A stretch of 35,363 nt of DNA from positions 1 through 35,363 of the forward strand of contig CANESK010000010.1 of the NCBI GenBank assembly GCA_947441075.1. The letters are read 5' to 3'. The notes beneath the pieces were generated by a model that saw only the letters and a list, made by a program, of their open reading frames with translations, made no database searches and was not told the DNA's origin. This DNA comes from Verrucomicrobia subdivision 6 bacterium. Its GTDB lineage: Bacteria; Verrucomicrobiota; Verrucomicrobiia; Methylacidiphilales; Verrucolacustridaceae. A program made the position numbers and the translations under genes. Shown piece by piece: positions 1-35,363 of this stretch (the first letter of the stretch is position 1; each line of letters begins with the position of its first letter).

Positions 1-1
1 C

Positions 2-712
2 ACTCAAAGCTTTGCCACAGAGTGGGATCCAAAAATGGAGCCCCCCCTCGGCCTCTCTTTCCCCCTCGAAATCAAAAACGATCGCGTCGTCTTATCCCAA
101 GATATTCTCCTGACCACCACCAAAATTCTCCCCGCCGGCACAATTCTGCGCACCATCTTCCGCCCCGTCACCCTGACCGAAGGCGAACTCAAATCAAAAC
201 GCGGAGTCAATGAAGACTCCTACTCCCGCGTCGCCCCAAAAGTAACTACCAAGGGACTCATGACCGAAACCGAACGCAAAATTATGGAGCGCGCCTACCA
301 AACCGTCTGGACCGATCCTATCGAATTTCGTCGAGCCCTCGAAATGTCCATCCCAGGTAACCTCCGTATCGTTCTTGAACCCTCCACTGGCCAGACCACT
401 GCCCCAATCGAGATTCCAGATTTTCCCGAAGGACTCTGCCTTGTCGGTCACCCAACTCCCCAAGTTTTGTGCGTACTCAAGGAGAGTCGAGCCGCCATCG
501 CCGGTTTTCGCGGTGGGGATACTCTTCTCGAAATCGCAGGCCAACCCGCAGGGGAAGACCTCAAGGAGTTTGCCACCCGCTACCTCACCGCGCACGAAAA
601 TGCCTCGAAGAAACGCGAACTTCTCCGCTTCAAAGTCCGCCGCTCTACTGGCGAAACTGAATCGCTCGCCCTTCGCATCCCCCCCACTTGGAACAGCGCC
701 TTCGAAGAGTAA
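2..712 (+). CDS. PDZ-like domain protein, C-terminal part (5' end outside window)
   Basis: The reading frame is open from the left edge (first complete codon at base 2), so the gene almost certainly starts upstream. The methionine at base 35 is only the first one visible. The last ~100 residues look like a PDZ domain: a GLCLVGHP strand, a segment with SRAAIAGFRGGDTLLEIAGQPA, as in the carboxylate-binding and peptide-groove part of PDZ domains, then a helix and a final strand ending LALRIPP. The preceding region, with ILPAGTILR, has no fold I recognise. PDZ domains bind peptide C-termini or extended segments and often sit in periplasmic proteins; no catalytic domain is visible, but the N-terminus is missing. 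The gene ends 3 bases before the stop of the opposing DUF151 gene. I am fairly confident of the gene and less so of the PDZ assignment. Confidence 0.6.
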   Translation, partial: TQSFATEWDPKMEPPLGLSFPLEIKNDRVVLSQDILLTTTKILPAGTILRTIFRPVTLTEGELKSKRGVNEDSYSRVAPKVTTKGLMTETERKIMERAYQTVWTDPIEFRRALEMSIPGNLRIVLEPSTGQTTAPIEIPDFPEGLCLVGHPTPQVLCVLKESRAAIAGFRGGDTLLEIAGQPAGEDLKEFATRYLTAHENASKKRELLRFKVRRSTGETESLALRIPPTWNSAFEE

Positions 713-715
713 ACT

Positions 716-1255
716 TTAGCTTTTTTTTCTAGGCCCCTTCCCTCCATCCCGCGGTTGTTCTCCTTCTCCCTTCGCCTCGCTGCCAGCCTGCCCCTCCTCC
801 CCCTCCTCACCAGTCTCGAACTTCTTTTTCAACTCCTGCAAAAAGGGGGTCATATCCGAAACCTTATCCCAAACCGCCTTGGCCACATGAATCGGCTTCT
901 GTGTTTCCAACGCCACCGCCACACAATCACTCGGTCTTGCATCGATCTCGGTGATCGAGGTTCCTCCTGGGCCAACCTGTCGCAAGGTCAACCGCGCAAA
1001 ATAGGTGTCATTTCGCAAATCATTAATCAAAACCCGATCCACCGTGATCCCAAACCCCTGCAAAATAAGATGAATCAAATCGTGGGTCAAAGGCCTCTCT
1101 CTCTTCTCCCCTTTCAACAAAAGAGCAATCGAAGTCCCCACTCCATGATCCACATGAATACTAAAAGTCTTTTTCTCATTCCCTAAAAAGACTGCCATTC
1201 CGTTGGCCGCAGGCATCAATCCGAGAATTTGAACTAAGGTGGAACCGTCACTCAT
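716..1255 (-). CDS. Bifunctional nuclease domain (DUF151/BFN) protein
   Basis: A 179-residue protein. Residues ~1-140 match the DUF151/bifunctional nuclease family, with the hallmark stretch IDARPSDCVAVAL (family pattern: DARPSDAIALAL), followed by PIHVAKAVWDK, and an early strand reading FLGNEKKTFSIHVD. Plant and bacterial members have reported DNase/RNase activity, but most bacterial members have unknown roles and nuclease function is not proven here. The last ~35 residues are a low-complexity tail rich in Glu, Gly and Lys and probably disordered. A GAGGAG Shine-Dalgarno-like sequence lies just before the ATG, with very short spacing. The gene converges on the PDZ-like gene and diverges from speA, so it is probably monocistronic. 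Confidence 0.8.
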   Translation of the reverse strand: MSDGSTLVQILGLMPAANGMAVFLGNEKKTFSIHVDHGVGTSIALLLKGEKRERPLTHDLIHLILQGFGITVDRVLINDLRNDTYFARLTLRQVGPGGTSITEIDARPSDCVAVALETQKPIHVAKAVWDKVSDMTPFLQELKKKFETGEEGEEGQAGSEAKGEGEQPRDGGKGPRKKS

Positions 1256-1323
1256 CTCCTCAGCTTATCTTTCTCCCCTCTATCCGCAAGATTGCTCAAT
1301 TCTTGACGAATCGTTGCATTGGG

Positions 1324-3270
1324 ATGACTAAGCAGTATATTCGGGATCCCGTGGCTGAGCCTTCAACGAAATGGACCATCGACGAAGCAATTCGTACCTA
1401 CGGGATTGCCCGTTGGGGAAGCGGTTATTTCGGCGTCAATCCCGCAGGACACATGACAGTTCATCCCCAAACCACAGACGGGGCTGGTATTGATCTAGTT
1501 AAAGTTGCCACTCGTGCCCGCGAAAAAGGCCTTCACTACCCTCTGCTCATTCGTTTCCACGATCTACTTCGCCACCGCGTGCGTGCCATCAACGAAGCCT
1601 TTGCCGATGCCATCAAGTCCGCCCGCTATAAAGGTGCCTACCGCGGTGTGTTCCCAATCAAGGTCAATCAGATGCGCGAAGTCGTAGAAGAAATACTCGA
1701 TGCGGGCGAACCCTACCACTTCGGCCTAGAAGTTGGAAGTAAACCAGAACTCTTCGCTGGCCTCGCTCATCATCGCGACCCTGAAAGTCTCCTCGTCTGC
1801 AACGGCTACAAAGACGCCGAGTTCATCCGTACGGCCCTTCTTGGCCGCAAACTCGGCAAAAAAGTTATTCTCGTCATCGAAAAGCCTGAGGAACTTCGTC
1901 TGGCCGTCGAAACCGCCCGCTCCATGCAAGTCGACCTTCTGGTTGGCGTCCGGGTTCGTCTTTCGGCGCGCGGCGTAGGAAAATGGGCCCTCTCAGGTGG
2001 CGATAGCGCGAAATTCGGACTCTCCACCAGTGAACTCCTCGAGGCGGTCGAATACCTACGCAAAGAAGGATGTCCTGAGGCCTTGCAGATGCTTCATTTC
2101 CACGTCGGCTCCCAAGTCCCCGACATTCTCGCCCTCCGCCGAGCCGTTCGCGAGGCCACCCGCTTCTACGCGCAACTCCATCATCTCGGACTAAAACCCA
2201 CCTATCTCGATGTCGGCGGCGGACTCGCCATCGACTATGACGGATCCCGATCCGATTCGGAAAGTTCGATGAACTATACCCTCGCCGAGTACGCTCGCGA
2301 TGTCGTTCGATCCGTAGCCGAGGTTTGTCGACAGGAAAAAGTCCCCCACCCCACTTTGGTCAGTGAAAGCGGGCGGGCCACCGTTGCCCATCACTCCGTC
2401 CTCCTTGTGGAAGTTTTCGGCACAATTGACAAAACCCCGCGCGCCTTTGTCCCCGCCAAGGAACAAGATCCAGAGTTTGTTCGGCAACTTTCCGATCTCG
2501 TCGTCAACCTGACCCGCAAGAATCGGCGGGAATCCCTCCACGACGGAATGGCGGTCAAAGAAGAAGCGGCCGCCCGTTTCGACCTTGGGTTGCTCGATCT
2601 TCCAACCAAAGCCCGCGTGGAAGACTCGTTCTGGCACCTGGCTGAGCGCATCACCTCCCTTTACACCAACGGTCGCCCGCCCCCTGAGGAAATCCGTAGT
2701 TTGGTGGAACAGCTCGGCAAACAGTACCTCTGCAATTTCAGCGTTTTCCAATCTCTCATCGATCACTGGGCTCTCAAGCAACTCTTTCCTATCGTCCCGA
2801 TCCAACGTCTCAACGAAGCCCCCATCCACCAAGGCCGCTTGGTCGATATTACCTGCGATTCAGACGGCAAAATCGACCACTTCGTCGATGGTACTGGAAC
2901 CCGATCGAGCCTCCCCTTACACGAATTAGGAAAAGACCCCTACCTCCTCGGTTTCTTCCTGCTCGGCGCCTACCAGGATGTCATGGGCGATCTCCACAAT
3001 CTCTTTGGTTCAGTCAATGAGGCCCATATTTACCTCGATGCAGATGAGCCCGACGGCTTCTACATTGAAGAAACCATTCCTGGGTTCTCTATTGGTCGGG
3101 TTCTCGGCAATGTTCAGTACGAACCCTCTCAGCTCTCTCGCTTAATCAAAGCCCAAGTCGACGAAGCCATTAAACTCGATAAAATGAAGGCTACCGAGGG
3201 GATGACTTTACTCGAATCCTACGAACAAGGCCTTTCCCACCCAACCTACCTCAATCTCGAAACTCCCTAA
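1324..3270 (+). CDS. speA: Biosynthetic arginine decarboxylase (PLP-dependent)
   Basis: A 648-residue fold-III PLP decarboxylase converting arginine to agmatine and CO2, the first step of the agmatine route to putrescine. Visible family marks: the PLP-lysine segment FPIKVNQ near residue 113; NGYKD; HFHVGSQ near 257; the phosphate-binding glycines DVGGGLAIDYDGS; and the second active-site half DITCDSDGKIDHF near residue 509, with its cysteine. The N-terminus (KWTIDEAIRTYGIARWGSGYF) matches the SpeA start. Length agrees with the ~630-660 usual for the family. An in-frame TTG lies 21 bases upstream at 1303, but the ATG at 1324 seems the better start; neither has a strong ribosome site. A PatD-type dehydrogenase at 13785 could act later in the same pathway. 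Confidence 0.95.
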   Translation: MTKQYIRDPVAEPSTKWTIDEAIRTYGIARWGSGYFGVNPAGHMTVHPQTTDGAGIDLVKVATRAREKGLHYPLLIRFHDLLRHRVRAINEAFADAIKSARYKGAYRGVFPIKVNQMREVVEEILDAGEPYHFGLEVGSKPELFAGLAHHRDPESLLVCNGYKDAEFIRTALLGRKLGKKVILVIEKPEELRLAVETARSMQVDLLVGVRVRLSARGVGKWALSGGDSAKFGLSTSELLEAVEYLRKEGCPEALQMLHFHVGSQVPDILALRRAVREATRFYAQLHHLGLKPTYLDVGGGLAIDYDGSRSDSESSMNYTLAEYARDVVRSVAEVCRQEKVPHPTLVSESGRATVAHHSVLLVEVFGTIDKTPRAFVPAKEQDPEFVRQLSDLVVNLTRKNRRESLHDGMAVKEEAAARFDLGLLDLPTKARVEDSFWHLAERITSLYTNGRPPPEEIRSLVEQLGKQYLCNFSVFQSLIDHWALKQLFPIVPIQRLNEAPIHQGRLVDITCDSDGKIDHFVDGTGTRSSLPLHELGKDPYLLGFFLLGAYQDVMGDLHNLFGSVNEAHIYLDADEPDGFYIEETIPGFSIGRVLGNVQYEPSQLSRLIKAQVDEAIKLDKMKATEGMTLLESYEQGLSHPTYLNLETP

Positions 3271-3288
3271 ATCCGTCCCTTTTACGAT

Positions 3289-3304
3289 TGGCAAACTCTT
3301 GCCA
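3289..3304. promoter_or_regulatory. Small perfect inverted repeat TGGCAA-N4-TTGCCA
   Basis: A 6-bp perfect inverted repeat with a 4-base spacer in the 55-bp gap between speA and the DksA-like gene, 22 bases before the latter's start codon. It could be a small operator or an RNA hairpin in the leader. No T-run follows, so it is not a convincing terminator. It resembles a -24/-12 sigma-54 element superficially, but the GG-to-GC spacing is 9, not 10. Confidence 0.3.
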
Positions 3305-3325
3305 TTACGCTAGGTTTGAAATTTC

Positions 3326-4033
3326 ATGGCATCAAAGTCTAAATCAAAAAAAGCCTCTAAATCCTCTTCGAAGAAGTCCTCCAAGGCTTCTCGCAAGAAG
3401 GCTCCTAAGCGTCCCTCTGCAAAAGGTAAGAGCAAGAAACCCGCCACCCCTCCCCTTGTGGCAAAAAGACCCTCTGGTCCCCCTTTCCCGATTAAAGTTC
3501 CTGCTAAGTTTCTCCGCCCTTTAGAGGAGAATCTCAAGCCTATCCGTCCGCCCAAGTTCTCCTCCTCCTTTTTAGAGCGGCAGACGATCAAACTGGCCGA
3601 ACTTCGTGACCATATTCTCGATCAAGTCCAAGGTGTAACCAAAGACAGCCTCCGCGAACGTGGCGAAGGCGGTGGATCCGCTTTCGGTATGCACCAAGCC
3701 GATGCGGGCAGCGATGCCTACGAAAAAGATTTTGCCCTCAGCCTTCTCAGCCAAGAACAAGATGCCCTCTACGAGATCGAACAAGCAATGAAGCGCATCC
3801 AAGCCCACGTCTACGGGGTCTGCGAAATGTCGGGCCAAGCCATTCCAGTTTCACGGCTCGAAGCCATTCCCTTTGCCCGCTTCACCGTTGATTGTCAGTC
3901 CCGCTTTGAACAGGAAAATAAAGGCAAGAACCGCTGGGAACCTGCCGTGCCTTTCATGGACAGCGTCGAATCATCCGAAGAGGAAAGCGGTGAAGAATCC
4001 GACGAAGAAGAGAAAACGAAAGCGAAGGAATAA
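3326..4033 (+). CDS. DksA/TraR-like protein with lysine-rich N-terminal tail and degenerate zinc finger
   Basis: A 235-residue protein in three parts. Residues 1-~55 are extremely rich in Lys, Ser, Ala and Pro, like a histone H1 tail. Residues ~85-200 resemble DksA/TraR: a long helical segment (LSQEQDALYEIEQAMKRI), then YGVCEMSG, then RLEAIPFARFTVDCQ. The last ~30 residues are acidic (Glu/Asp/Ser). DksA binds in the RNA polymerase secondary channel and modulates transcription with ppGpp. Classical DksA has CxxC...CxxC; here the pattern is CxxS...TxxC, so only two zinc cysteines remain, comparable to known cysteine-poor DksA variants. The gene is 6 bases upstream of rpsR and likely co-transcribed with rpsR and rpmB. 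Fold assignment is good; whether it acts on polymerase is inference. Confidence 0.75.
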   Translation: MASKSKSKKASKSSSKKSSKASRKKAPKRPSAKGKSKKPATPPLVAKRPSGPPFPIKVPAKFLRPLEENLKPIRPPKFSSSFLERQTIKLAELRDHILDQVQGVTKDSLRERGEGGGSAFGMHQADAGSDAYEKDFALSLLSQEQDALYEIEQAMKRIQAHVYGVCEMSGQAIPVSRLEAIPFARFTVDCQSRFEQENKGKNRWEPAVPFMDSVESSEEESGEESDEEEKTKAKE

Positions 4034-4039
4034 TTCAAT

Positions 4040-4270
4040 ATGATCATTAAAAAAGGCCGCAAACCCCGTCGGATGAATCGATCCACTTCTCGGAAGCGGA
4101 TTGATATCAATGGCGAGGCAATCGATTTCCGTAATGTGGAGCTTCTCCGCAAATTTATCACCGAGACAGGCAAGATTCTTCCCCGTAAGATCACTGGCAT
4201 GCCCGCCAGCCTGCATCGCCAACTCAATACCGCCATCAAGAGGGCCCGCAATGCCCTCCTCCTCAAATGA
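4040..4270 (+). CDS. rpsR: Small ribosomal subunit protein bS18
   Basis: A 76-residue basic protein with the S18 signature [23 protein letters not shown], then [12 protein letters not shown] and [11 protein letters not shown], all in family order and at the normal length. It binds 16S rRNA in the platform of the 30S subunit next to bS6. The ATG sits 6 bases after the DksA-like gene, and the stop overlaps the rpmB start in an ATGA arrangement, so translational coupling is likely. No bS6 or bL9 gene adjoins it, although these often accompany rpsR. Confidence 0.97.
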
Positions 4271-4530
4271 GCCGCCGCTGCGAAATCACCGGTGCCGTGC
4301 CCTCTCTCGGGCGTAAAATCATTCGGAGTGGTAAGTCCAAAAAATCAGGCGGTATCGGAACCCACGTCACCGCTAATACTCCTCGGCGCTTCCGTCCTAA
4401 TCTGCGTCGCAAGAGCATTTTCGTACCTGAACTCGGGCGTCATATCCAAGTGCGTCTCACCGCCCGTGCCCTCAAGACGATCGACAAGAATGGTGCCTAC
4501 GCCACTCTCAAACGCGCGGGCTTGGTTTAA
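4267..4530 (+). CDS. rpmB: Large ribosomal subunit protein bL28
   Basis: An 87-residue basic protein. The N-terminus [15 protein letters not shown] matches the L28 start (C-x-x-T/C-G). The segments [17 protein letters not shown] and [20 protein letters not shown] correspond to the conserved RRF.PNL and RVS...KTIDK.G parts of the family. It lacks the paired cysteines of zinc-binding L28. It overlaps rpsR by four bases (ATGA). A 105-bp gap with no clear terminator separates it from the next gene. Confidence 0.96.
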
Positions 4531-4635
4531 AACAACCCGGCTTTGGACGGTTTCTGCCAAGGGGCGATCTTTCGCCATGGTGGAATCTAGAGTTACCGCC
4601 CTGCCCGCTTCTGTCCTGTCATCGTTCGATTACCG

Positions 4636-4944
4636 ATGAACCATCTTCATCTTCTCGCCTCGCCACCGGACCACCCTGCCACCGCTCTTTTCTTGAAGCA
4701 GACAGCGACCTTGCTCGAGTCCCATGAAAAAGTTTCCGCCTACTTTTTGCACGAAGGCGCCACCTCCCTAGTACACCCCCAACTCCCTGACCTCGTGGCG
4801 CGCGGTCTCCGCCTCTTTGCTTGCCCACGTGCTGTCGAACAATTTGCCTCAGGCAATCAACTCGACGTCGTCTTAGGTGGACCTGGCCTCCTCGCTGAGC
4901 TCATCGAACGCTGCTCCCCCACCCAATCTTTCGATCCCGTATGA
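4636..4944 (+). CDS. DsrE/DsrF-like protein (TusD-like)
   Basis: A 102-residue protein that looks like the DsrE/DsrF small sulfur-relay fold: an N-terminal strand, a helix, the strand VSAYFLHEGA (family: hydrophobic strand then F...GV/GA), then GLRLFACPRAVEQF with the cysteine at the position of the sulfur-accepting Cys of TusD/DsrE, and a closing helix LLAELIERC. Family members pass persulfide sulfur, for example to tRNA thiouridine synthesis, or serve in sulfur oxidation. The gene overlaps the next by four bases (ATGA), and that product looks related, so they may form a heteromer like TusCD. No TusE or MnmA is visible. The assignment rests on motif resemblance only. Confidence 0.5.
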   Translation: MNHLHLLASPPDHPATALFLKQTATLLESHEKVSAYFLHEGATSLVHPQLPDLVARGLRLFACPRAVEQFASGNQLDVVLGGPGLLAELIERCSPTQSFDPV

Positions 4945-5261
4945 AGAAGGTTGCCATCATCTGCCAAACCGCACCCGGCGGAAAACGTCGCTTGGCTGAA
5001 GAAGCCCTCCGCCTCGCCACTGGTCTCACCGCCACCGGTCGACTGCAAATCGATCTTATTCTGACCCAAGGCGGCACCGCTCTCCTCCACCCAGAAATGG
5101 GCGGACCCCTTGGTACTTGGGAATCCCTCCTTGCACCCCACACCCGAATCCTTGTCCCTTCCGATACGCAAGTCCCTCCCTCCGCTCCCCCGGTTACTCG
5201 GTTGGCCAATATTAATCCGGAAAAAGCCTCCGCTGGAGCGGATATCATCCTTCGCTTCTAG
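4941..5261 (+). CDS. Possible DsrF/TusC-like partner protein
   Basis: A 106-residue protein starting KKVAIICQTAPGG and ending ADIILRF, with the strand IDLILTQGGTALL aligned with the YFLHEGA strand of the preceding protein. The size, the strand-helix alternation and the overlapping arrangement (ATG inside the previous stop, 4 bases) fit a DsrF/TusC-type partner, but no catalytic cysteine lies at the expected position; the only Cys is near residue 8. Members without the Cys are common among structural subunits of these complexes. I do not recognise it with certainty; it could also be a lineage-specific protein. It ends 51 bases before mpl. Confidence 0.4.
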   Translation: MKKVAIICQTAPGGKRRLAEEALRLATGLTATGRLQIDLILTQGGTALLHPEMGGPLGTWESLLAPHTRILVPSDTQVPPSAPPVTRLANINPEKASAGADIILRF

Positions 5262-5312
5262 GGTTTTTCCTCGACTCCACCCCTTCTCTCCGCCATCCGA
5301 TGTGTCTGCCCT

Positions 5313-6716
5313 ATGCTAGACCGAGCCCAGCTTAAACACCTCCACTTCCTTGGCATTGCAGGAAGTGGCATGGGTACCGTCGCCGCAATGTTCCGCGAAC
5401 TGGGTCTTCAAGTCACCGGATCCGATCAAGCGGTCTATCCGCCCATGTCCGATTTCCTCCGCGATCGTGGCATCGTCTTTCACGAAGGCTACGCCGAAAA
5501 GAATCTTTCCCCTAAGCCCGACCTCGCCATCGTCGGCAACGCCCTCTCCCGCGGAAACCCCGAACTTGAAGCTGTCCTCTCCCACCGTATTCCTTTTGTC
5601 TCCCTCCCAGAACTCCTCCGCGGTTGGTTCCTCTATAAAACCCGCAATCTCGTCGTCTCAGGAACCCACGGCAAAACCACCACCTCCACCATGCTCGCTT
5701 TCCTCCTTGAAAAAGCAGGTCTCCATCCCAGCTGGTTCATCGGCGGAGTTCCCCTAGACCTCCCCGGCGGATGCCACCACGGCACTGGCTCCTTCTGGGT
5801 TCTCGAAGGAGACGAATACGACACCTCCTTCGCCGATAAACGAAGCAAGTTCCTCCACTACCTTCCCGAACTCGTCATTCTCAATAATGTTGAATTCGAC
5901 CACGCTGATATCTACCCCGACCTCGCCGCCATTCAGAAATCATTTCGCCAACTTCTTCAACAAGTACCAGGCAACGGGCTCGCCTTAATCAATGCGGACG
6001 ATCCCAACGCCCTCGCCGTCGCCCAAGACGCCCCCTGCGAAATTCTTGAGGTAGGCTCAGGTCCACAGGCCGCCGCCCGCTATAAGATCCTCAAAGCGGA
6101 TGCCAGTGGAAGTAGCTTTACCCTGCACGGCCAAGAATTTCATCTTCAGCTAGCGGGCAAACATAATGTCCACAACGCATCCATGGCTCTCTGTGCCGCT
6201 CACACCCTCGGACTCCCTCTCGATAAGCTAGCTGCCATTCTTCCCACATTTCGCGGTGTCCGCCGCCGATTAGAAGTCCGCGCAGAGGCTAACGGAATCA
6301 CCCTTGTGGATGATTTTGGCCATCACCCCTCCGCCTTGCGAGAATCGATCGCCGCCCTCAGGGGTAAATATCCAGGTCGTCGCCTTTGGGCCCTCTTCGA
6401 ACCACGATCCAACACCACCCGTCGCGGTATTTTCCAAAACGAGCTCGCTCAATCTCTCTCCGCTGCCGATGGCGTCTACATCACCGAAATCGCCCGCAAA
6501 GAACAGATCGATCCCCAGATGCGCCTCGATCCAAAGAAAATAGCCGACGACATTCGAAAAGCAGGTCGCGAATCCTTTTACCTTCCTGGCCCAGAAGAAA
6601 TTCTCAAAGACATCCTTCCCCGCTTAAAATCGGGCGACGTCGTCGCCATCTTTACCAATGGGAGTTTTGGTGGGTTGGTTGGAAAGCTTGCCGACGCCAT
6701 ACAGAAAAAGAATTAA
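5313..6716 (+). CDS. mpl: UDP-N-acetylmuramate:L-alanyl-gamma-D-glutamyl-meso-DAP ligase
   Basis: A 467-residue Mur-ligase family enzyme that attaches recycled murein tripeptide to UDP-MurNAc. It has an N-terminal UDP-binding Rossmann part (HFLGIAGSGMG, residues 11-21), TGSDQAVYPPMSD, the ATP P-loop GTHGKTTT near 117-124, EGDEYDTSFADKRSKF near 164, NNVEFDHADIY, and the C-terminal domain with DDFGHHPSALRESI and FEPRSNTTRR. The YPPMSD and EGDEYDT...DKRSKF forms point to Mpl and not MurC, in which the corresponding stretches differ. Length is normal. It overlaps the end of convergent ispH by four bases. It implies a peptidoglycan-recycling cell with meso-DAP. Confidence 0.92.
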   Translation: MLDRAQLKHLHFLGIAGSGMGTVAAMFRELGLQVTGSDQAVYPPMSDFLRDRGIVFHEGYAEKNLSPKPDLAIVGNALSRGNPELEAVLSHRIPFVSLPELLRGWFLYKTRNLVVSGTHGKTTTSTMLAFLLEKAGLHPSWFIGGVPLDLPGGCHHGTGSFWVLEGDEYDTSFADKRSKFLHYLPELVILNNVEFDHADIYPDLAAIQKSFRQLLQQVPGNGLALINADDPNALAVAQDAPCEILEVGSGPQAAARYKILKADASGSSFTLHGQEFHLQLAGKHNVHNASMALCAAHTLGLPLDKLAAILPTFRGVRRRLEVRAEANGITLVDDFGHHPSALRESIAALRGKYPGRRLWALFEPRSNTTRRGIFQNELAQSLSAADGVYITEIARKEQIDPQMRLDPKKIADDIRKAGRESFYLPGPEEILKDILPRLKSGDVVAIFTNGSFGGLVGKLADAIQKKN

Positions 6717-7951
6717 GCGGTCGTTTGTGGAATGAGTGACTTTACGTCCACCCCACGAAACTGAAACAACTTCGCAATTGTCTCCTCGATGACGTTGTTT
6801 GGGCAGGAAGCCCCCGCCGTCACCCCGATCTTCACCTTCCCCTTGGGCAACCAATTCATCGTTCTCTTCTCTTTTTGAGCGTGCTGGTCGTAATGCTCAA
6901 TCTCATCGGTCGATATCATTCGTGAACTATTGCGAATGAAGTAGGTAGGCAACTTTGCCTCGCCCATCTCCGCTAAGTGAGTGGTGTTACTACTATTGTA
7001 CCCACCCACCACCAGCAAGAGATCGGGTGGCACCACGAGCAGATCTCGCAAGGCATCTTGCCTCTCCTGAGTCGCGCCACAAATCGTATCGAAAAATCTA
7101 AAGTGTTCGCCCGTCTTTTTCTCCCCATACCGATCCTCAATCGCCTTCTTCAACCTTCTTTGCACCTCCTCAGTTTCTCCACGCATCATCGTCGTCTGAT
7201 TAGCCACTCCCACCGCCTGCAAATGCTTTTCTGGATCAAATCCTGGAGAGTGGGCTCCCTCAAACTTCTTCAAGAACTCCGCCCGGTCGCCACCTTTCCG
7301 AATATATTCACAGACATAATCAGTCTCTTCTAAATTATAGACAACTAAGTAGTGACCCATCCCGTCCGTACTAAGGGCCCTCGAACTCGTCGCCATCGTC
7401 TCCTCGTGGGATGATTTTCCGTGAATAATCGAAGTGACCCGCTCCTTATTGTACTGGCGAACCCGCTTCCAGACGCTCATCACGTCCCCGCAAGTCGTAT
7501 CCACCGTCTGACATCCAATCGTTTTCAACCGATCCATCACCGCCACCTCCGCACCAAAGGCAGGAACGATCACCACATCCTCCGACGTCAATCCTGTCAG
7601 GTCATACCCCGCAGGATGACGCTTCAAAGATTGAATCTTCATCTCTCGTAACTGCTCGTTCACCTCGGGGTTATGAATAATCTCACCCAACAAAAAGATC
7701 CGTTTGTCTTTAAAGACTTTTGCCGCCGCGTAGGCCAGATCAATTGCCCTCTCCACCCCATAGCAAAAACCAAACGCCTTTGCCAAAACCACCGTCATAT
7801 CCCCCGCCACCAAATCCCGACCCGTCGCTCGAACATATTCCACCGCCAAACTGCGATAATGCTTTTCCACTTCCGCCTGCACCGCCTGCATCACCTCAGG
7901 AGTCCGCAAATTTACCTTTTTAGGAACGGGGGCGGTGGAAGTTGTGCTCAT
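6713..7951 (-). CDS. ispH: 4-hydroxy-3-methylbut-2-enyl diphosphate reductase
   Basis: A 412-residue iron-sulfur enzyme catalysing the last step of the MEP isoprenoid pathway, reducing HMBPP to IPP and DMAPP. The three cluster cysteines are visible: C63 in AFGFCYGVERAI, C154 in VDTTCGDV and C383 in TAGASCPNN. Other conserved parts are EIIHNPEVNEQL, VIVPAFGAEV, GKSSHEET and GGYNSSNTTHL. It is about 100 residues longer than the E. coli enzyme, resembling the long cyanobacterial/plant type, with an extra N-terminal ~50 residues and internal insertions. It lies 72 bp downstream of argF on the same strand and overlaps the mpl stop from the other side. Confidence 0.95.
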   Translation of the reverse strand: MSTTSTAPVPKKVNLRTPEVMQAVQAEVEKHYRSLAVEYVRATGRDLVAGDMTVVLAKAFGFCYGVERAIDLAYAAAKVFKDKRIFLLGEIIHNPEVNEQLREMKIQSLKRHPAGYDLTGLTSEDVVIVPAFGAEVAVMDRLKTIGCQTVDTTCGDVMSVWKRVRQYNKERVTSIIHGKSSHEETMATSSRALSTDGMGHYLVVYNLEETDYVCEYIRKGGDRAEFLKKFEGAHSPGFDPEKHLQAVGVANQTTMMRGETEEVQRRLKKAIEDRYGEKKTGEHFRFFDTICGATQERQDALRDLLVVPPDLLLVVGGYNSSNTTHLAEMGEAKLPTYFIRNSSRMISTDEIEHYDQHAQKEKRTMNWLPKGKVKIGVTAGASCPNNVIEETIAKLFQFRGVDVKSLIPQTTA

Positions 7952-7964
7952 AGTCAGAATCCTA

Positions 7965-7998
7965 CCTCGATTATTTCGAGGGTCGAGCCTCGATGAGG
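7965..7998 (-). promoter_or_regulatory. Overlapping inverted repeats in the argF-ispH spacer
   Basis: The 72-bp gap between argF and ispH contains CCTCGA, then TCGAGG, then CCTCGA again, then ATGAGG, on the plus strand. The middle element can pair with either neighbouring one, so two alternative 6-bp stems with loops of 5 and 6 bases are possible just upstream of the ispH start codon. This could be a leader with alternative structures or just a weak argF terminator; no T-run follows on either strand. Confidence 0.25.
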
Positions 7999-8023
7999 TT
8001 GCAGTTAAAGTGCTAACAGGGAA

Positions 8024-8914
8024 TTATTTAGAGACAATCCACTCCAAGATACCCTTCTGGGTGTGTAGCCGGTTTTCTGCCTGATCGAAAATATCCTGCG
8101 ACCGCTCTTCTAAAAGTTGCACGCTAATTTCTTTGCCCCGATACGCGGGCAGACAGTGCAAGACCAAAGCATCTTTCTTGGCCTTGGCCACCAACTTCTG
8201 ATTGATCTGATACGGAGCGAAAAGTTTTTCCCGCATTTCCGCCTCCGCCTCTTTGCCCATAGAAACCCACACATCCGTGTAGAGGACATCTGCTCCCGAA
8301 GCCGCTTCTTCAGGATCCTCTGTCCACGATACCCCATCGCCCGTTTTCGCAGGCCGGAACTCCTTCGGAGCTCCACAAGCTAAGGAAAATCCAAAGATCT
8401 TCGCCGCCTCGACCAGAGACCGCGGCACATTGCAGGCCGCATCACCGATGAAAGCAATTTTCTTGCCCCGAATCGCACCCCGCTTCTCTTCAATTGTAAA
8501 GATATCACTTAGAATCTGGCACGGATGCTCATCATCCGTTAGGGCATTGATCGTTGGAATCTTGGCAAACTCCGCAAACTCCACCACGTCTGCCTGAGCA
8601 AAGGTCCGAATCACCGCGCCATGCACCATCCGACCCATTACTCGCGCGGTATCCCGCACCAACTCCCCCCGCCCCAACTGAATCTCCGCAGCACTTAGAA
8701 AAGTCGGCACTCCGCCCATCTCACGAATGGCCACTTCAAAAGATACCCGCGTACGAGTCGACGCCTTAGTAAAAATCAACGCCCAGATTTGCCCGGCTAA
8801 GGCCTCACTCGCAGAGCACTTCTTTCCCCTGTTTTTCTTCGCAGCTTGGGCAAGGCCCAAAATAATTCGCGCCTCCGCCTCTTTCATTCCTTCCAACTTC
8901 AAAAGATGTTTCAT
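8024..8914 (-). CDS. argF: Ornithine carbamoyltransferase
   Basis: A 296-residue enzyme converting ornithine and carbamoyl phosphate to citrulline. It carries the carbamoyl-phosphate motif STRTR (residues 52-56), HPCQ (130-133) and the ornithine-side motif HCLP (253-256), plus DVWVSMGKE. I chose the ATG at 8914, giving MKHLLKLEGM, because it matches the family N-terminus and overlaps the argD stop by four bases (ATGA). A longer open frame reaching 9115 lies inside argD and has no family resemblance. The protein is slightly shorter than the ~305-335 of many homologues. It probably forms an operon with argD, and perhaps ispH downstream. Confidence 0.95.
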   Translation of the reverse strand: MKHLLKLEGMKEAEARIILGLAQAAKKNRGKKCSASEALAGQIWALIFTKASTRTRVSFEVAIREMGGVPTFLSAAEIQLGRGELVRDTARVMGRMVHGAVIRTFAQADVVEFAEFAKIPTINALTDDEHPCQILSDIFTIEEKRGAIRGKKIAFIGDAACNVPRSLVEAAKIFGFSLACGAPKEFRPAKTGDGVSWTEDPEEAASGADVLYTDVWVSMGKEAEAEMREKLFAPYQINQKLVAKAKKDALVLHCLPAYRGKEISVQLLEERSQDIFDQAENRLHTQKGILEWIVSK

Positions 8915-10131
8915 AGGGTCTCCTCCACTTTTTTTAGCGCCTCTTGCACCTCTTCTTTTGTCACAGAATAAGGCGCAAGGAACCGCAAAACATCCGAACC
9001 CGCGGGCACCACCAATAACCCTTTCCCAGACAACGCCTCCGCAACCTCGCCATGCGTCCTTCCCTTTACCGTCACCCCCACCATTCCACCAAATCCCCGA
9101 ACCTCTCCCACCCAACCTTTTCCAGAAAGTCTTCCTAAACCCTTTTTCAGCTCCTCCCCCCTCTCTTCAATGTTTTTATCCAACTTTTCCTCTTCAATAA
9201 TATTCAGAATCTCCAGCGCTACCGCACAAGCCAAGGCGCCTCCCCCATAAGTTGTCGCGTGCGTTCCTGGAGTGAGCACCTCCGCCAGTCGACTACCAAA
9301 CCAAACCGCCCCAATCGGAAAACCACCCCCAAGGCTTTTCGCCATGGAAACAGCATCGGGCAGGAAAGCCTCTTTAACCCCAGCATCCTCCAAAATTCGC
9401 TGATAACTCTGGAACCGACCCGTCCGATAGTGACCGCACTGCACCGAATCCATCAAAAGATAGATACCCTTCTCCTTTGCCAGCTTCTGCAAACCCAACA
9501 AATAGTCCGCCTGCGCAGGAAGAATCCCTCCCTCCCCCTGAATGCCTTCGATCATTACCGCCACCGTTTTTACTCCAATTGCTCTCTCCACCGCCGCCAA
9601 GTCATTGTACGGCACATAGACAAACCCAGGTAGAACAGGCCCAAAACCTTCCCTTAACCGCTCCTGACCGGAAGCCGCAATCATCCCCAAGGTCCGTCCG
9701 TGAAAAGAATTTATCGTGGTGATCACCTCATACCTACCCTCCTGCGCCCCAGCCTTCCGTACCGCCTTGATCATCGCCTCATTCGCCTCCGCCCCACTAT
9801 TACAGAAAAAGATTTTTCCAGGACCTGTCCTCTGGACTAATGCCTCGGCCAACTCTGCCTGCTTGGGGTGGAAGAAAAGATTCGAAACATGCACCAGCTC
9901 CTCCCCTTGCTTTTTCATCACCGCCGCTAACCGTGGATGAGCGTGGCCCAAGCAGTTCACCGCAATCCCACTGCCGAAATCCAAATATTCCTTCCCATCC
10001 GCATCCCACACCCTCGCACCCTTACCCCTTACTAGAACGGGCGCCATGGCCGACCGCTTATACGAAGGCACCACGTGCTGGGCGTAACCTGCCCGCACCG
10101 AATCTGACAGCTTCTGAGGATTTGTCTTCAA
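8911..10131 (-). CDS. argD: Acetylornithine aminotransferase
   Basis: A 406-residue class-III PLP aminotransferase. It carries FCNSGAEANEAMIKAVRK near 109-126 (phosphate and cofactor binding), SFHGRTLG near 142, the PLP lysine K265 in SMAKSLGGGFPIGA, and HATTYGG in the small domain. The genomic neighbour argF supports the acetylornithine role over other class-III activities. The usual D-E-V-Q before CG.GRTG reads DSVQCGHYRTG here (residues 228-238), so the Glu after the cofactor Asp is Ser. The Asp that binds the pyridine nitrogen is kept. The start codon is TTG, 50 bases after the DAHP synthase stop; no ATG occurs upstream of the conserved domain. Confidence 0.9.
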   Translation of the reverse strand: MKTNPQKLSDSVRAGYAQHVVPSYKRSAMAPVLVRGKGARVWDADGKEYLDFGSGIAVNCLGHAHPRLAAVMKKQGEELVHVSNLFFHPKQAELAEALVQRTGPGKIFFCNSGAEANEAMIKAVRKAGAQEGRYEVITTINSFHGRTLGMIAASGQERLREGFGPVLPGFVYVPYNDLAAVERAIGVKTVAVMIEGIQGEGGILPAQADYLLGLQKLAKEKGIYLLMDSVQCGHYRTGRFQSYQRILEDAGVKEAFLPDAVSMAKSLGGGFPIGAVWFGSRLAEVLTPGTHATTYGGGALACAVALEILNIIEEEKLDKNIEERGEELKKGLGRLSGKGWVGEVRGFGGMVGVTVKGRTHGEVAEALSGKGLLVVPAGSDVLRFLAPYSVTKEEVQEALKKVEETL

Positions 10132-33036: not shown

Positions 33037-34209
33037 ATGGCAATTAAGGCTCTCGAATCTCTCGAACAGTTTGCCACCGATGTCATTCTGGATCGTGCGG
33101 CTGGACGCCGCGCATCCCTCCTTAAACCTCTCCTTCTCTTCCTCGCTACGATTTACGCAGGCATCATGCGCTTGCGTGCCCGCTTCTACCAAGATGCTGT
33201 CTTCCGCCGATACTCGGTCGGCGTCATGGTCATCAGCGTCGGTAATCTCACCGTAGGTGGCACTGGTAAAACTCCCGTCGTCGAAAAACTTGCCCGCTCT
33301 CTGCACGAAGCAGGTCGCCGTGTCGCCATCCTCAGTCGTGGATACAAAAGCGCTCCCAAACCTCTCCTCACCCGCCTGGCGGATAAGTTTCTTCCAGGCC
33401 GGATTCCATCCCCCCCTCGCGTTGTTTCGGACGGAAAATCGGTCCTCCTGGATTCAGCCCAAGCAGGAGACGAGCCCTTCATGCTCGCCCGTAATCTCCC
33501 CGGTGTCGCCGTGCTCGTCGATTCCGACCGAGTCAAAAGCGCCCGTTACGCCATCCGCAACTATCGGTCCGACACCCTCCTTCTCGATGACGGCTTCCAG
33601 TACCTCCGCCTCGGCGATCGCTTCAACCTTCTCCTCGTCGATCGGCAGAATCCTTTCGGCAATAAGCATGTTTTGCCTAGGGGAGTTCTTCGCGAACCTC
33701 CCGATGCTCTACGCCGCGCCGATCTAATCCTCCTGACCAAATGCCTTGGAACCGACCATGCAGAGCTAGAAAAAACCATTCGCCGCCATAACCTTCACGC
33801 TCCCATTCATCCCTGCAGCCACCACCCTCTTCACTTAGAGGATGTTCTCACAGGTGAAAAACAACCGCTCTCCTTTCTCCGGGGGCTGCGTGTCGGGGCC
33901 CTCGCAGGCATAGCCGTGCCTGAAAGCTTCTTTGCCGGCCTTATCAAACTAGGAGCTGAAATCGTCTACCAGCGATCCTTTGCCGATCATCATCGCTTCT
34001 ACGCTTCGGAAATCGAAAATGCCCTTACCCGGACCCGAGCTCGTCGCGGCCTCGCCCTCATTACCACCGAAAAGGATTCCGTCCGCTTTCCTCCATTCCC
34101 CCCACGCGACATCCCCGTCCTTTTCCTTCGAGTCGAGATTTCCATGCTCGACCCAACCACAACCTTCGAGCAGACCGTCCGTGCCGCCCTCGGCATTCGT
34201 CCAACCTAA
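33037..34209 (+). CDS. lpxK: Tetraacyldisaccharide 4'-kinase
   Basis: A 390-residue membrane-associated kinase phosphorylating lipid A at the 4' position, giving lipid IVA. It has an N-terminal hydrophobic helix (PLLLFLATIYAGIM, ~31-44), the P-loop VGGTGKTP at 73-80, RVAILSRGYKS, GDEPFMLAR and LLLDDGFQYLRLGD near 184. The usual DDGFQH has Tyr in place of His. The end is close to normal. It shows that the cell makes lipid A. It is divergent from dnaK and its stop overlaps that of the convergent PL6 gene by four bases. Confidence 0.93.
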   Translation: MAIKALESLEQFATDVILDRAAGRRASLLKPLLLFLATIYAGIMRLRARFYQDAVFRRYSVGVMVISVGNLTVGGTGKTPVVEKLARSLHEAGRRVAILSRGYKSAPKPLLTRLADKFLPGRIPSPPRVVSDGKSVLLDSAQAGDEPFMLARNLPGVAVLVDSDRVKSARYAIRNYRSDTLLLDDGFQYLRLGDRFNLLLVDRQNPFGNKHVLPRGVLREPPDALRRADLILLTKCLGTDHAELEKTIRRHNLHAPIHPCSHHPLHLEDVLTGEKQPLSFLRGLRVGALAGIAVPESFFAGLIKLGAEIVYQRSFADHHRFYASEIENALTRTRARRGLALITTEKDSVRFPPFPPRDIPVLFLRVEISMLDPTTTFEQTVRAALGIRPT

Positions 34210-35363
34210 TCTTTTTTCTTCTTTTTCTTCTTTTTCTCTGCCTTGTCAGTAGGCGCCCGAGCACACGACAGATCGTCCTCCACCGCGAATTGGCCCGCCT
34301 TACGTAAGGCAATCACCCATCCAGGCCCTACCTCATCTGGAGTCAACGGCTTCCAGTTTGCCAGCTCCTTCTCCTCCGACCATCCACTTGGAATCGCCTG
34401 AATTTTACATCCAGAGGAAGCAAGGGCATCGGCACAAGTCCCACCCAACAGCACATTGTTCTCAAAATGATTCGGCTTCAGTTTGATCTTATCCAAAGGG
34501 GGTTCCGTGTCGGCCACCGCCCCAATGACCGATTCTCCACCATTCGAACGAATAAATTGGTTATCTTTGATCTGACAATTCTCGGGCAAAAGGACCAGCT
34601 GATTCTCAGGCCAATGCCGCTTGTAGGCAAAGCCAACCTCTAAATCTGCTCCCGTATTATTGACCGAAACATTGCGCGCCAGCAGCAAATCCTGAACCGG
34701 GGGATACTTGGCCACATTCACCTCGGTTGCCTCTCCCTTTTTGCTCTTTTTCTCCTTCATGTTCGCCTGATAGCTCGGGGTCAAAGCCGATTCCGTATAC
34801 TCCCCCGTCTGAATCCGAATTCCCCATTCGCAACCTGAGACATAGTTATCTTCCACCTTGTTATCAAAACCCGACATCCGTAGCCCCTGCGCCCCTACCA
34901 CCCCCTTACCCAGCAAAATATTTCCCTTCACTAGGTTGTGAGAGCCCTGCCGGATATTGAGACAACCACGACTCGCCACAATCGTATTACTCAAAACCTG
35001 ATTGTAGTTGGACTTCAACGAAATGATTTCCGTCCCTTCCCCGTCCGCGCCCTCAAACAGATTTCCCTCCACCACACAAAAAGCCCCATCCTTATCTTTC
35101 GGATCAAATTTACCGGGGCCCCACATCCGCAAGATCTCGCGCCCATTTCCATCCTCGTAGGGAATATTCTTAAAATAACAGCTCCGCACGGTGTTGGTTC
35201 GACTCCCATCAATCGCATTACCCAAAAGAGGATGCATGTTGTTCTTTCCCTTGAAGTAACATTTTTCCAGAACATTGTTATCCCCGCTGAAGTAGGCCCA
35301 ATAGCTCTCATCCTCAAATTCAGGAGGGTTGTAATCGATCACAGCAGTATTACGGACGGTCCC
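34206..35363 (-). CDS. PL6-family polysaccharide lyase-like protein, C-terminal part (5' end outside window)
   Basis: The frame is open to the right edge, so the N-terminus is missing; about 385 residues are visible. They show a right-handed beta-helix repeat pattern and motifs of the PL6 family (alginate lyase/chondroitinase B): IDYNPPEFEDESYW, KCYFKGKNNMHPLLG, REILRMWGPGK, VEGNLFEGADGEGTEIISLKSNYNQVLSNTIVASRGCLNIRQGSHNLVKGN, in pieces. In the family, a Lys and an Arg of these blocks act in beta-elimination of uronic-acid polymers; the ISLKS and NIRQG segments fit them. Signal peptide and N-terminal domain cannot be seen. The C-terminus is an odd run of eight Lys before Asp. It suggests polysaccharide degradation; the substrate is not certain. 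Confidence 0.8.
   Translation of the reverse strand, partial: GTVRNTAVIDYNPPEFEDESYWAYFSGDNNVLEKCYFKGKNNMHPLLGNAIDGSRTNTVRSCYFKNIPYEDGNGREILRMWGPGKFDPKDKDGAFCVVEGNLFEGADGEGTEIISLKSNYNQVLSNTIVASRGCLNIRQGSHNLVKGNILLGKGVVGAQGLRMSGFDNKVEDNYVSGCEWGIRIQTGEYTESALTPSYQANMKEKKSKKGEATEVNVAKYPPVQDLLLARNVSVNNTGADLEVGFAYKRHWPENQLVLLPENCQIKDNQFIRSNGGESVIGAVADTEPPLDKIKLKPNHFENNVLLGGTCADALASSGCKIQAIPSGWSEEKELANWKPLTPDEVGPGWVIALRKAGQFAVEDDLSCARAPTDKAEKKKKKKKKD

Follow-up and report, generated by a model that had tools for sequence, protein, structure and literature searches.

A tailed DksA-family protein with altered zinc-site and ppGpp-contact residues, encoded beside rpsR and rpmB in Verrucomicrobiota

The window, by which we mean the whole 35,363-nucleotide stretch analysed from a Verrucomicrobia subdivision 6 bacterium, encodes a DksA-family protein immediately before the genes for ribosomal proteins S18 and L28. 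In the most likely reading, which we consider probable, this protein is a secondary-channel factor that works independently of zinc and ppGpp and is co-expressed with the two ribosomal proteins. DksA is usually studied as a ppGpp partner, and a phylum that is nearly without the ppGpp synthetase domain but has DksA offers a natural test of a ppGpp-free DksA role.

Family, fold and residue changes of the window DksA

The gene and the parts of its product are listed here.
3326 to 4033, + strand: gene for a DksA/TraR-family protein (open reading frame with ATG start, 235 aa)
3326 to 3469, + strand: basic N-terminal tail, Lys/Ser/Ala-rich, aa 1-48 (from sequence; predicted disordered)
3470 to 3574, + strand: Pro-rich linker, aa 49-83, with an invariant P-S-G-P-P-F-P-I-K block
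3563 to 3802, + strand: coiled coil, helices at about aa 80-113 and 127-159 (AlphaFold2)
3821 to 3895, + strand: degenerate zinc site, C166-x2-S169 ... T187-x2-C190 (alignment)
3941 to 4030, + strand: acidic C-terminal tail, aa 206-235 (from sequence)

The protein matched the zf-dskA_traR family (Pfam PF01258, 1.5e-10) with 41.4 bits against a cut-off of 24.9, and this match, together with the open reading frame, bears out the identification of a DksA-like protein at 3326-4033 made in an earlier note on this DNA. It fell below the cut-off of the canonical-DksA equivalog TIGR02420 (46.4 against 115.5 bits). A single DksA/TraR-type match was found in the source genome (1.73 Mb, 91% complete), and homologues were present in 278 of the 289 phylum genomes sampled; the tailed DksA is not a local oddity but spans the sampled phylum. 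Within the genus, each of the protein's four regions gave a dN/dS well below 1 where the ratio was computable, and dN of the core was very low. One order member also carries a second, diverged DksA-like stretch that is unlinked to rpsR (L097, G024:C36:13155-13595).

AlphaFold2 predicted the two helices of the coiled coil with good confidence and the globular part after them with low confidence, and modelling the core alone gave the same picture as the full-length model. The alignment supplied to AlphaFold2 was shallow because it held only the window and related-locus sequences, and the low confidence in the globular part follows from this. The best eight PDB fold matches of the core model (Foldseek) were all DksA, from E. 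coli, Pseudomonas, Chlamydia and Agrobacterium, and the top match of the full-length model was Pseudomonas aeruginosa DksA2 (PDB 4IJJ). Thus, the DksA fold proposed earlier agrees with both the predicted coiled coil and the fold matches, with the globular part modelled at low confidence. The tip motif of the coiled coil is D126-A-G-S-D130, and its aspartates were kept in 96 (D126) and 95 (D130) of 98 aligned sequences. We propose that the coiled coil, with this acidic tip, inserts into the RNA polymerase secondary channel.

C166, S169, T187 and C190 aligned with C114, C117, C135 and C138 of E. coli DksA, which confirms the CxxS...TxxC pattern, with two zinc cysteines, that had been read from the letters. 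This C-S-T-C pattern was the commonest zinc site (60 of 98 aligned sequences); four cysteines were found in 6 of the 98 and the others retained one to three. Four zinc cysteines persist in L045 and several distant members, and some order members have four or three at the same cluster position. On a poorly resolved tree of 123 columns, which has E. coli on a very long branch and speaks only to repeated change of cysteine state, the cysteine count changed at least 11 times, a minimum that suggests several alterations of the zinc-site cysteines within the family. Having two zinc cysteines is not unusual alone, because Pseudomonas DksA2 has two and binds no zinc (PMC9213440). The globular part of the window DksA would fold without a full zinc site.

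The ppGpp contacts of E. coli DksA, K98, R129 and K139 (PMC7676912), which belong to ppGpp site 2, corresponded in the alignment to E150, I181 and Q191 of the window DksA. The replacements were general among 98 homologues, with E at the K98 position in 95, Q at the K139 position in 95, and a basic residue at the R129 position in just 2; the globular part would no longer make site 2. A RelA/SpoT synthetase domain was undetected in the source genome and was not found in 36 of 37 order genomes or in 274 of 289 phylum genomes, with a domain match present in the other 15 phylum genomes. The sole match among the 37 order genomes was L173 (G031:C209:7947-8276). These counts agree with the published description of the PVC group as lacking the RelA/SpoT synthetase (PMC3153485). 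Neither the missing synthetase domain nor the lost contact residues figured in the earlier note. The source genome has one copy of the N-terminal GreA domain; this GreA/GreB N-terminal domain (L218, G000:C27 around 3609-3812) sits in an open frame of ~660 aa, and C. trachomatis GreA has likewise been described as unusually large (PMC10995303).

Linkage of dksA to rpsR and rpmB

Downstream of the dksA core the following features were identified.
4025 to 4029, + strand: AAGGA, likely the rpsR ribosome-binding site, within the last dksA codons (proposed from sequence)
4040 to 4270, + strand: rpsR, ribosomal protein S18, no cysteines (Pfam 1.9e-21)
4267 to 4530, + strand: rpmB, ribosomal protein L28 (Pfam 7.5e-18)

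The dksA stop codon lies 6 bp before the rpsR start at 4040, as the earlier note had stated, and rpsR and rpmB overlap by 4 bp. At every assessable locus, 15 in the genus and 33 in the rest of the order (48 together), dksA was followed by rpsR, with gaps of 5-7 bp within the genus and 4-130 bp in the order outside it, and rpmB followed rpsR at all linked genus and order loci. Across the class, rpsR lay about 220-310 bp after dksA at 24 of 33 loci, with rpmG between them where examined. Between 3150 and 4750 no terminator-like site was found on the + strand, and no Rfam leader element was found near the cluster (window 1-9000, E up to 1). A promoter scan gave two + strand matches, against an expectation of 0.9, too few to place a promoter. 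After rpmB, two small open reading frames occupy 4636-5261 of the window (+ strand), the first weakly DsrE-like (0.18) and the second without a match.

One explanation for this arrangement is that an ordinary DksA-type factor sits in a neighbourhood that merely persists from past genome order, passively and without functional meaning. Where the gene after dksA was readable outside the linked loci, it was mostly lspA, and dksA has therefore changed partners, as passive order would allow. However, rpsR was linked in all assessable order genomes and at 24 of 33 class loci, the dksA-rpsR gap stayed at or below 130 bp throughout the order, and the upstream gene, speA, was not a conserved neighbour in much of the order. 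We regard passive order as unlikely. The earlier suggestion of a link to ribosomal protein expression holds as conserved synteny, although conserved neighbours are no proof of regulation. In the reading that we prefer, co-expression with S18 and L28, dksA and rpsR-rpmB probably share a transcript and may be translationally coupled, such that the amount of DksA would track ribosomal-protein synthesis. The conserved dksA-(rpmG)-rpsR cluster is a concrete site at which a link to ribosome supply can be tested.

The DksA, S18, L28 and L33 families each have zinc-binding and zinc-free forms, and we considered the possibility that the cluster provides zinc-free DksA, S18 and L28 (and L33) for zinc shortage, in the manner of Zur-controlled paralogue operons or DksA2. 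The S18 encoded here is cysteine-free, the DksA contains two cysteines, and rpmG, another such gene, sits between dksA and rpsR in the class, as expected if the cluster were zinc-sparing. In contrast, DksA, S18 and L33 each gave one match in the source genome (S18 and L33 were nearly always single-match across the order), which leaves no zinc-binding counterpart for them to replace, and the DksA at the same cluster position has four or three cysteines in some order members. A zinc-sparing role is therefore highly improbable, and the specific form of a zinc-sparing paralogue cluster acting as a conditional response was largely ruled out by the single-copy DksA, S18 and L33.

The basic and acidic tails

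Both tails were predicted by AlphaFold2 to be disordered, with a pLDDT of about 40-50 for the N-terminal one. The presence of a Lys/Ser/Ala-rich stretch, noted earlier at ~55 residues, was confirmed, with the strongly basic part confined to residues 1-48; the acidic tail recognised at the same time corresponds to the last ~30 residues. A Lys-rich N-terminal tail occurred in nearly all sampled phylum homologues examined, and its sequence was little conserved. In L051 and L053, which have small genomes, it was short or Lys-poor, and in L054-L059 and L107 its charges were balanced; tail lengths in relatives are rough because their start was set at the most upstream ATG. Thus, the earlier view that a tail absent from all relatives would count against the proposal was answered by a search of homologues that found the tail across relatives. 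The acidic C-terminus was kept mostly in the class and was missing from several more distant phylum members.

Among 791 gene-like open reading frames in 0.81 Mb of the source genome, sampled in stretches, the window DksA ranked first for a Lys-rich low-complexity terminus, followed by ribosomal protein S11 and IF-2, and we conclude from this rank that the tail is more than chance. Within the genus the tail evolved faster than the core, yet its dN/dS was about 0.1-0.2 where computable; the linker was better conserved than the tail, with lower dN. A separate open reading frame at 34206-35342 of the window (- strand) has a C-terminus that finishes in a lysine run.

The tail also raises the possibility that the protein is now mainly a ribosome- or rRNA-binding factor whose RNA polymerase role is gone. 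That S11 and IF-2 have the most similar tails among the proteins of the 0.81 Mb examined and that dksA clusters with ribosomal genes are consistent with this idea, but the tip aspartates were kept in 95-96 of 98 sequences and core dN was very low, both of which are expected if polymerase contact was retained. We judge loss of the polymerase role improbable. For a secondary-channel factor of the kind we favour, the basic tail would most likely make additional contacts, of a non-specific kind, to DNA, RNA or ribosomes, and the acidic C-terminal tail may counterbalance it. A bolder version, which we consider doubtful, is that, where ppGpp synthetases are lacking, alarmone control has been taken over by a DksA with a disordered basic tail balanced by an acidic one; the basic tail would read nucleic acid or ribosome load, and co-expression with ribosomal proteins would close a feedback between polymerase control and the supply of ribosomes.

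Comparison with known DksA proteins

Two-cysteine DksA is already known from Pseudomonas DksA2, and DksA in a ppGpp-less lineage from Chlamydia. What is added here is the combination of E, I and Q at the ppGpp contacts with a synthetase domain missing from nearly all order and phylum genomes sampled. The literature searched contained no account of a tailed DksA in a ribosomal cluster across the class, and searches for DksA in Verrucomicrobia, Akkermansia or Planctomycetes, or with a lysine-rich extension, returned nothing on the family.

By sequence, the closest solved relative in a profile search was C. trachomatis DksA (6PTG, 2.2e-19), from a lineage described as lacking ppGpp synthetases (PMC10995303). 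It shares with the window DksA the C-x2-S at the first zinc pair and the D-x-G-[ST]-D tip motif, but its second zinc pair is T and S rather than T and C, and its 132-residue PDB chain has neither a long Lys-rich tail nor an acidic C-terminal one. P. aeruginosa DksA2 has a similar two-cysteine globular domain; it serves in zinc starvation as a paralogue of the zinc-binding DksA1, whereas the window DksA is the single copy in its genome. The best NCBIfam match was the YteA family TIGR02890 (1.1e-20), yet the window DksA scored below that family's cut-off (74 against 134). Bacterial histone H1-like proteins bind DNA through a Lys-rich domain; what is seen in the window DksA is a tail of Lys-rich composition. 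E. coli DksA (1TJL, 7KHI) has the same coiled coil and globular fold, but it has four zinc cysteines in place of C-S-T-C, retains K, R and K where the window DksA has E, I and Q, and lacks the basic tail.
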